Below are positions 39,643-41,447 of a stretch of 64,000 bases of DNA, piece by piece (within the stretch, counting starts at the first letter, position 1; each line of letters opens with the position of its first letter). A program made the translations under genes and the position numbers. Under the pieces are notes generated by a model. It saw only the letters and a program-made list of their open reading frames with translations, had not been told where the DNA came from and made no database searches. The stretch is from Terriglobus saanensis SP1PR4 (GTDB taxonomy: Bacteria; Acidobacteriota; Terriglobia; Terriglobales; Acidobacteriaceae): assembly GCF_000179915.2 (NCBI RefSeq), contig NC_014963.1, positions 1,116,001 through 1,180,000 on the forward strand, in the 5' to 3' direction.

Positions 39643-39741
39643 GTTTCATGAAGAGTGGCTGAGGGACGAGCCCTTTGACGCCACGACAACCGGCCCTCGG
39701 GACCGGTGTCACCTCTCTCCTGGTAACAGGGAACATGAGAT
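39643..39741 (+). ncRNA. SAM-I (S-box) riboswitch
   Basis: The sequence shows S-box hallmarks: closing stem TCATG (39646-39650) with CATGA (39734-39738), AAGAGTGGCTGAGGGACGAG, the ACAACC core near 39686 and the GGTGTCACCTC junction. It lies about 140 bases upstream of the threonine-synthase homologue, so SAM controls that gene and the sulfur-carrier gene behind it. The regulated step is discussed in the findings. Confidence 0.88.
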
Positions 39742-39884
39742 TCGGGATACATGGCGTCCTTTGTAGCTCTGTACCTCCGAATAATCCTGACTTCCTCCAC
39801 CACGCCGCCGGCGTTTGCCGCCTTCGTGGATCCCAGAAAAGAGTACGTCAAAGGCACGCTTCTCTCCATTCGGAGAAGGATTGC
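39742..39884 (+). promoter_or_regulatory. Riboswitch expression platform and hairpin over the ribosome-binding site
   Basis: Leader between the SAM aptamer and the ATG at 39885. The Shine-Dalgarno GGAGAAGGA (39872-39880) can pair with TCTCC at 39863-39867 around an ATTC loop, which would hide the site. A second stem CCACG/CGTGG flanks a CG-rich loop upstream. No run of T's is seen, so control of translation is more likely than termination. Confidence 0.5.
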
Positions 39885-41165
39885 ATGTCTGCCTGTACGC
39901 CGTACGAGCTTCGGAATATGGATGGAAAGAGCTTCGGCAACCAGCCGCTCTCTATCTGCGATGAGACCTTCACGCCGCTTGAGGTGCACTATGATCTTGA
40001 AGCCGCGAAGAGCCTCTTTACCCGCAAATCGATCGAAGCCGGACCGGCGAATATCTGGCGGTATCGTGCCCTGCTTCCGATTCCCGAGGGCTTCGAGCCC
40101 GATCTTCCCGTAGGCTTCACGCCGCTCGTTCGTGCGAAGAACCTGGGCAAGCGCATCGGTGCCAATAATCTTTATGTGAAGAACGACGCCGTCTGCTTCC
40201 CGACGCTGTCGTTCAAGGACCGTGTTGTCAGTGTCGCCCTGGCGAATGCGCAGGCCTTTGGATTTACAACGGTCGGCTGCTCGTCCACGGGCAATCTGGC
40301 GAACTCGGTAGCGGCACAGGCCGCGCGCCTGGGGATCAAGGCCTGCATCCTCGTTCCGGCGGACCTGGAGCCAGCAAAGATTCTCAATACGCTCGTCTAT
40401 GGAGCACAGCTCGTCCGTATCGACGGCAACTACGATCACGTCAACCGTCTCTGCTCGCTGATCGCCGACCAGTACAACTGGGGCTTCGTGAACGTCAATC
40501 TGCGGCCTTACTATGCCGAGGGTTCGAAGACTGTCGGCTACGAGATCGCGGAGCAGCTTGGATGGCGGCTACCGGATAACGTTGTGGTTCCCATGGCGGG
40601 CGGTTCGCTGATCCGCAAGATCCGCAAGGCCTTCAAGGAGCTTGTTTACCTCGGCCTGGTCGAAGACAAGCCGGTCCGCTTCTTCGGTGCGCAGGCTACG
40701 GGTTGCTCTCCCATCTCGCACGCCGTGAAGAACAATCTGGATCACATCGAGCCGCAGCGTCCGAACACGATTGCGCGTTCGCTGGCGATCGGCAATCCCG
40801 CCGACGGTCCGCAGGCAGCGAAGATGATCCGCGAGAGCGGCGGTTGGGCTGAAGATGTCTCCGATGTAGAGATCGTCAGCGGCATGCAGGAGCTTGCTGA
40901 GACCGAAGGCATCTTTACGGAGACTGCAGGCGGTGTGACTACAGCTGTGACGGCGCGGCTGTATGCGCATGGACGCATCCATCCCGACGATCTCACTGTG
41001 AGCTGCATCACGGGCAATGGTCTCAAAACGACCGATGCCCTGGCAGGAAAGTATGAAGCGCAGCGCGCAGTGCGCCCGCGTCTTTCCGACTTTGAAGAAT
41101 ATCTGCGCGAGATGAACTACGCCGCAGAAGCAAAACCCGAGCTCGTGCTCGCAGGAGGAAAATAA
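39885..41165 (+). CDS. thrC: Threonine synthase-like PLP enzyme under SAM-riboswitch control
   Basis: About 426 residues, fold type II PLP enzyme. The PLP lysine is in TLSFKDRVVS (about 108-117), the phosphate loop is CSSTGNLANSVAAQ (about 131-144), and the N-terminus VGFTPLVRAKNLG is typical of threonine synthase. By annotation it converts O-phosphohomoserine to threonine. A SAM riboswitch upstream and a MoaD/ThiS-like gene directly behind argue that it may instead make homocysteine. The start at 39885 is set by GGAGAAGGA four bases before the ATG. Stop and next start are adjacent. Confidence 0.9.
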   Translation: MSACTPYELRNMDGKSFGNQPLSICDETFTPLEVHYDLEAAKSLFTRKSIEAGPANIWRYRALLPIPEGFEPDLPVGFTPLVRAKNLGKRIGANNLYVKNDAVCFPTLSFKDRVVSVALANAQAFGFTTVGCSSTGNLANSVAAQAARLGIKACILVPADLEPAKILNTLVYGAQLVRIDGNYDHVNRLCSLIADQYNWGFVNVNLRPYYAEGSKTVGYEIAEQLGWRLPDNVVVPMAGGSLIRKIRKAFKELVYLGLVEDKPVRFFGAQATGCSPISHAVKNNLDHIEPQRPNTIARSLAIGNPADGPQAAKMIRESGGWAEDVSDVEIVSGMQELAETEGIFTETAGGVTTAVTARLYAHGRIHPDDLTVSCITGNGLKTTDALAGKYEAQRAVRPRLSDFEEYLREMNYAAEAKPELVLAGGK

Positions 41166-41447
41166 GTGTCTATTCGTGTGATGTTGCCCGCCGCGTTTCA
41201 GCGGCATACCGACGGTGTCAAGCAGGTCGATTCAAGCGCAATCAATCTCGCGGCGCTCGTGGAGGACTTGAAGTTCAAGTTCCCCGTTCTCGGCGAACAT
41301 ATCAAGGATGCAGACGGCAAGCTGCGGAAGTTCATCAATGTCTATGTCAACGACGAAGACATCCGCTTTCTTGGAGGAGAGAGCTATGCCTTCCAGGACA
41401 AGGATGAAGTCATGTTTATCCCGTCGATCGCTGGCGGGGCTCGCTAG
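41166..41447 (+). CDS. MoaD/ThiS-family sulfur carrier protein
   Basis: 93 residues with a ubiquitin-like beta-grasp pattern: INLAALVEDLKFKFPVLGEHI, then RKFINVYVNDEDIRFLGGE and KDEVMFIPSIAGG. The chain ends GGAR, i.e. the diglycine that is activated to a thiocarboxylate is followed by two extra residues, which would have to be removed first, as in HcyS- or CysO-type carriers. The GTG start abuts the thrC stop and has AGGAGG seven bases upstream, so the two are made together. Partner hydrolase and E1-like enzyme are not in the window. Confidence 0.85.
   Translation: MSIRVMLPAAFQRHTDGVKQVDSSAINLAALVEDLKFKFPVLGEHIKDADGKLRKFINVYVNDEDIRFLGGESYAFQDKDEVMFIPSIAGGAR

Follow-up and report, generated by a model that had tools for sequence, protein, structure and literature searches.

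In Mycobacterium, CysM, CysO and Mec+ constitute a route to cysteine. With regard to methionine, Krishnamoorthy and Begley are said to have described in 2011 that in Wolinella a protein thiocarboxylate leads to homocysteine with the help of a capped carrier and a JAB peptidase, and the enzyme of this route reportedly uses O-acetylhomoserine and belongs to fold type I. For MetO, action as a thiocarboxylate has reportedly been described by Hasebe in 2024. The Wolinella methionine route is named HcyS/HcyD/HcyF in the accessible part of PMC5764234. MetM from Streptomyces is a homocysteine synthase that converts O-phosphohomoserine (Hasebe 2024, doi 10.1128/aem.01247-24, via the accessible part of PMC12172450). 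According to the same text, metO is the adjoining sulfur carrier gene in S. albulus, a SAM riboswitch is located upstream, and MetM homologues occur among cyanobacteria, e.g., a Microcystis protein that is 51.6% identical to MetM and has a metO-like neighbor without a SAM riboswitch. The Microcystis relative exhibits threonine synthase as well as threonine deaminase activity, and no rise in methionine was seen in threonine-treated Microcystis cells (PMC12172450, accessible part). These threonine activities call for caution when function is read from clade membership alone.

The locus studied here stems from Terriglobus saanensis, whose genome is present as a single contig of 5.1 Mb (99.99% complete); bases 1116001-1180000, i.e., 64,000 nucleotides, were analyzed and are termed the window. 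Based on its sequence features, the locus very probably is a MetM/MetO locus that makes homocysteine for methionine. As in S. albulus, to the extent that the accessible text of PMC12172450 describes it, a ThrC-type enzyme is encoded together with a carrier downstream of a SAM riboswitch; unlike S. albulus, the source organism belongs to another phylum and the carrier is extended by Ala-Arg. The preliminary description had claimed a SAM-I riboswitch ahead of a threonine synthase homologue that is followed without a gap by a MoaD/ThiS-like carrier ending in GGAR, and this arrangement was confirmed in all its parts, which are located on the forward strand. The SAM-I (S-box) aptamer (39643-39741) aligns over the full length of the Rfam model SAM (RF00162, 70.4 bits with a gathering score of 44.4, E 2e-14). 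It is followed by a metM-like gene (39885-41165) for a putative fold-type II, pyridoxal phosphate-dependent homocysteine synthase of 426 residues that scores 281.8 bits with TIGR00260 thrC (cut-off 167.1) and, with zero gap, by a metO-like gene (41166-41447) with a GTG start, encoding a ThiS/CysO-type carrier of 93 residues that matches the ThiS family PF02597 with 47.9 bits. The proposal that homocysteine is formed from O-phosphohomoserine and the thiocarboxylated carrier agrees with the described reaction of Streptomyces MetM, a putative member of the same clade (PMC12172450, accessible part). The idea of a variant methionine route is thereby supported, but the route itself was already described for Streptomyces in 2024, so far as that text goes, and the T. 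saanensis locus is a new occurrence of it with a capped carrier.

In the window-wide Rfam scan, the aptamer was the sole match at gathering score, and it was also the one match of a genome scan with RF00162 that scored 150 out of 362 first-look candidates. A fluoride riboswitch is located elsewhere in the T. saanensis genome (L058:9862-9935, 50.1 bits). Between the end of the aptamer and the ATG of the enzyme gene at position 39885 lie 143 bases. Upstream of this ATG, the enzyme reading frame continues without a stop codon to position 39675 or beyond; the start was set at ATG 39885 because both the relatives and the Shine-Dalgarno sequence GGAGAAGG (39872-39879) point there. In the minimum free energy fold, this sequence is paired within a hairpin (39853-39889, forward strand) that overlaps the start codon and is a putative expression platform. 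As the leader fold as a whole is not significantly stable (z -1.44, 14 of 200 shuffles equally good), translational switching is an inference; control in this locus is probably translational. By eye, a similar C/U-rich arm faces the Shine-Dalgarno sequence in six related loci (L024-L029), and terminator-like hairpins followed by U-rich stretches are present in six others (L032, L033, L040, L042, L049, and L051). A promoter and terminator scan yielded one candidate each with shuffle means of 0.9 and 2.4, i.e., no excess.

The enzyme contains a PF00291 match and stays below the cut-offs of the other five listed NCBIfam threonine synthase equivalogs. It aligns throughout with ThrC from Thermus, including the lysine of the SFKDR motif, is 35% identical to the ThrC of its own genome, and a PDB sequence search alone is unable to tell MetM from ThrC. 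The canonical motifs STGNT and NSxNPxRxEGQKT are both absent: STGNT is replaced by STGNL, and NSVNPYRLEGQKT by NVNLRPYYAEGSKT. In the alignment, Thermus T88 corresponds to leucine and R160 to tyrosine. Presumably, T88 and R160 and the two canonical motifs line the substrate-phosphate pocket; if they hold the phosphate, MetM must hold O-phosphohomoserine differently, and the conserved arginine of the NLR stretch is perhaps the residue that does so instead.

Phylogenetic analysis comprised 61 sequences, i.e., 30 orthologues from the phylum of T. saanensis (its own enzyme and 29 others), 14 actinomycete enzymes and 17 other ThrC-type proteins; L166, a 189-residue frame without the motifs, as well as L083 and L126, in which the start motif failed, were left out. 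The first two groups (44 sequences) fall on one side of a branch with a support of 100/100 and the 17 other ThrC-type proteins on the other; the tree program warned of long branches meeting between other sequences and the rest. Actinomycete enzymes are placed inside the diversity of the T. saanensis phylum. The T. saanensis enzyme shares this clade with those from Streptomyces loci of MetM/MetO architecture, after which we termed it MetM, S. albulus MetM itself not being among the sequences. All 44 members feature STGNL together with N[VI]NLR[PAS][FY]Y[AGT]EG[SA]K[TS], while seven canonical ThrC proteins (from T. saanensis itself, Thermus, Aquifex and four others) exhibit STGNT and NS[VI]NP[YH]R[LI]EGQKT; the remaining ten ThrC-type proteins contain neither motif set. 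Unlike actinomycete MetM, the window enzyme has lost the N-terminal CxxC..CxxC. This zinc-ribbon-like element is present in 43 of the 44 clade members examined and missing solely in the window protein (39885-39990).

Among solved structures, the carrier has two matches: 3dwg/3dwm through the CysO chain (E 2.4e-19), and 4n6e (E 9.5e-15). In either case, the aligned part of the carrier runs from residue 1 to 91 and stops at GG, so that Ala-Arg is an extra on the window carrier. A CysO-like carrier, a PLP enzyme of fold type II and a JAB peptidase are features in common with the CysM/CysO/Mec+ system of Mycobacterium; unlike the latter, the enzyme is of the ThrC rather than the CysK/CysM type, the riboswitch points to methionine, and the replacement would occur at the gamma- rather than the beta-carbon. 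The proposed protein thiocarboxylate as sulfur donor, the capped carrier and the JAB peptidase resemble what is reported for HcyS/HcyD/HcyF of Wolinella, unlike which T. saanensis lacks a metX match (E <= 1e-30) for the provision of O-acetylhomoserine.

Among actinomycetes, tblastn of plasmid records (E 1e-60) retrieved one record, from Nonomuraea gerenzanensis, encoding an enzyme 55.8% identical to that of T. saanensis. The order of SAM-I riboswitch (68.7 bits), enzyme and carrier (ending in AVAGG) is the same as in the window. When named genomes were scanned with an alignment whose first sequence was the Nonomuraea protein, 584 stretches were confirmed, the best 80 of which all stem from Actinomycetota, 54 of them with Streptomyces in the title; as the query was headed by an actinomycete protein, the scan says nothing on other phyla. 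Within these best 80 of 584, a SAM-I riboswitch lies upstream in all 15 loci scanned and a carrier follows the enzyme in 78 cases, the other two contigs ending less than 90 bases past the match. The 78 carriers end in GG (54), GGC (21) and GGQ, GGAR or GGAV (one each). The GGC tail constitutes a one-residue cysteine extension, as in L087, L088, L104, L114, and L141, among others. Two actinomycete carriers are 34-35% identical to that of the window.

Within the phylum of T. saanensis, orthologues of the enzyme were present in 35 of 149 sampled genomes, 34 at no less than 47% identity and E <= 2e-122, and one (G112, 79% identity) cut by a contig end; the next best match, not counted as an orthologue, had 37% identity (E 8.5e-70). 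Thirty of these loci, including that of the window, were fetched with about 1500 bases of flank, and a SAM-I riboswitch lies upstream in 18 of them, i.e., in all 11 from the family of T. saanensis and in 7 of 19 from elsewhere in the phylum. Carriers were sought with an HMM built from 18 carriers in a six-frame reading of the available flanks. In the family, the carrier is located beside the enzyme in 11 of 12 genomes, the exception being G023 with about 900 bases after the gene; elsewhere in the phylum it was found, in limited flanks, in 7 of 23 genomes, leaving 17 of all 35 in which the HMM detected no carrier there. All 11 family carriers are extended past GG, nine of them by exactly two residues (AR, CC, AI, SF, IA, SF, CI, TI, and CC) and the other two by 20 and 28, while all seven carriers found in other families of the phylum end at GG. 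Masking of the diglycine by Ala-Arg, as suggested in the preliminary description, thus holds true for the presence of an extension but not for its letters: judged by the carriers found, extension past GG is conserved in the family, whereas Ala-Arg is not.

The same family exhibits a clear pattern with regard to metX. None of its 12 genomes with the enzyme contains a metX match above 200 bits (a line drawn after seeing a gap from 215.9 to 175.1 bits), and all three genomes without the enzyme (G007, G073, and G121) contain metX with 381-397 bits; three genomes that possess the enzyme, G061, G094, and G103, contain weaker matches (111-140 bits). By gene content, MetM alternates with metX in this family. 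Throughout the phylum sample, metX above 200 bits was found in 2 of 35 genomes with the enzyme and in 31 of 114 without it (p 0.0055), metX above 200 bits or metA in 2 of 35 vs. 39 of 114 (p 0.0005), and any metX match at E <= 1e-30 in 6 of 35 vs. 42 of 114 (p 0.038), Fisher p values that overstate the association because the genomes are related. G125 and G077, the latter with a partial match, hold both metX above 200 bits and the enzyme. Half of the sample (75 of 149 genomes) contains neither metM nor metX above 200 bits nor metA, which would call for further homocysteine routes or losses. JAB proteins are encoded in 32 of 35 genomes with the enzyme vs. 37 of 114 without; at E 1e-6, JAB was not detected in G019 and G128, the carriers of which end in GG, nor in a third orthologue-containing genome, G140, in which no carrier was found.

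Ten PALP-fold matches are present in the T. saanensis genome. A canonical thrC with the classical motifs (at 1420547) adjoins thrB (at 1421713, 225.8 bits), so that threonine synthesis has its own gene pair; another ThrC-like protein, L005, scores 525 bits with PRK08197 (cut-off 303). Neither metX (E <= 1e-30) nor metA (E <= 1e-10) nor HcyBio (E <= 0.001) was matched in the genome. Of the methionine genes whose absence the preliminary description had envisaged (metA, metB and metZ), metA was thus not matched at this threshold, but metB- and metC-like genes are present: two PLP enzymes of the Cys/Met metabolism family, L011 and L012, match over nearly the full model. For L011 the best NCBIfam model is the cystathionine gamma-synthase PRK07811 (412 bits, below the cut-off of 513), with sulfhydrylase and gamma-lyase models scoring nearly equal; L012 reaches 459 bits with the cystathionine beta-lyase PRK07050 (cut-off 500) and 331 bits with TIGR01324 (cut-off 366). 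A SAM-I riboswitch was matched near neither gene, be it in their flanks (L054 and L055) or in the genome scan. Since metB- and metC-like genes are present, a second route to homocysteine may operate. Judged by family membership, two PF02574 proteins could methylate homocysteine.

A JAB peptidase and an E1-like enzyme, which had been predicted to accompany the carrier, are both encoded. One protein exceeds the Prok-JAB cut-off (84.7 bits), a second match being far below it (15.5 bits). The former carries the JAMM-like stretch HSHPDHPAHWSKTD, and its gene begins immediately downstream of the stop codon for a CysM-type protein (at 4188701; TIGR01138, 323 bits, cut-off 394) that has its own carrier fusion nearby. 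The protein encoded after JAB consists of three parts: a CysO-like domain ending in GGAT, an E1 domain (487 bits with MoeB model PRK08762, cut-off 449) and, at its end, a rhodanese-like region. Both JAB and this fusion thus belong to an apparent cysteine operon, and further ThiF proteins are encoded at 1081304 (strong) and 4521945 (weak). The cysM-JAB-cysO::E1 run occupies L053:6690-9596 (genome 4188.7-4191.6 kb), with the carrier fused to its own MoeZ-type E1, GGAT being followed by a linker.

For the pathway as a whole we propose the following sequence of events. In the T. saanensis family, the residues after GG would be clipped first, most simply by the JAB protein of the cysM-JAB-cysO::E1 run, and an E1-like enzyme, either the MoeZ-type fusion or a second ThiF protein, would adenylate the C-terminal glycine of the carrier on the way to the thiocarboxylate. 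MetM would then eliminate phosphate from the O-phosphohomoserine supplied by ThrB and attach sulfur from the thiocarboxylate at C-gamma; homocysteine would be set free when the adduct is hydrolyzed, for which the same JAB may be responsible, and would then be methylated by a methionine synthase. With SAM bound, the riboswitch would be closed, probably because the Shine-Dalgarno sequence stays hidden. That O-phosphohomoserine is the substrate is suggested by clade membership and by the reaction described for MetM. The CysO-like nature of the carrier, together with what Hasebe reportedly described in 2024, points to a thiocarboxylate as donor, and trimming and adduct release by JAB are suggested by co-occurrence and by the CysO and Wolinella systems. 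A more specific possibility, which we put forward tentatively and hold slightly less probable than its opposite, is that MetO in this family is an inactive precursor that the single JAB of the cysteine operon uncaps, perhaps also cutting the adduct, such that one JAB and the fused E1 would serve both routes and thereby tie cysteine and methionine synthesis together.

Other readings of the locus have to be weighed against homocysteine synthesis by MetM/MetO. That MetM and its carrier only supplement transsulfuration, in which the cystathionine gamma-synthase-like L011 would condense O-phosphohomoserine with cysteine as in plants and the beta-lyase-like L012 would cleave the cystathionine, is in line with the presence of both genes, yet both score below the curated cut-offs, L011 is nearly as close to sulfhydrylases and gamma-lyases, neither gene has a SAM-I match, metX and metA are not matched in the genome, and MetM exchanges with metX in the family; we regard transsulfuration as main route as unlikely, a catabolic role for L011 and L012 being possible. 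Somewhat less probable still appears the use of free sulfide by MetM, with the carrier as an accessory or engaged in tRNA thiolation or molybdopterin synthesis. It would accommodate the 17 of 35 phylum genomes for which limited flanks yielded no carrier beside the enzyme, whereas adjacency in 11 of 12 family genomes and in 78 of the best 80 of 584 actinomycete loci, as well as CysO proteins as nearest solved relatives, argue against it.

The lowest probability is assigned to an ordinary threonine synthase, or threonine synthase/deaminase, under SAM control next to a carrier for another pathway. The TIGR00260 score above cut-off, in vitro threonine formation by the Microcystis relative (PMC12172450, accessible part) and, by eye, aspartokinase- or homoserine-kinase-like genes adjoining some of the deep clade enzymes would fit such a role. 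On the other hand, canonical thrC beside thrB already exists in the genome, the pocket positions differ consistently from those of the seven canonical ThrC proteins, no SAM-I match other than that of the window was found in the genome, and the carrier neighbor is common to actinomycete loci, so that this reading is very improbable.

If MetM and MetO act as proposed, the locus would account for homocysteine synthesis in bacteria without metX or metA and show that the route known from Streptomyces occurs in another phylum as well. In annotation, such genomes readily pass for methionine auxotrophs or seem to contain a superfluous threonine synthase, assignments that could be corrected by the marks STGNL, NLRxYYxEG[SA]K, a SAM-I riboswitch and a neighboring carrier. 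Our literature search, which reached few subscription papers, found no report of MetM/MetO in Acidobacteria; nor did we come across an account of the system alternating with metX within this phylum, of a family with extended carriers, or of a JAB/E1 set that is probably shared with the cysteine operon.

A deep branch of the MetM clade (L045 and L047-L052, also L169 and L170) comprises enzymes with no carrier found nearby. In G125 and G140, the gene after that of the enzyme is, by eye, aspartokinase-like; in G028, the one before it resembles a homoserine kinase gene. This branch may consist of threonine synthases or of enzymes with two functions.
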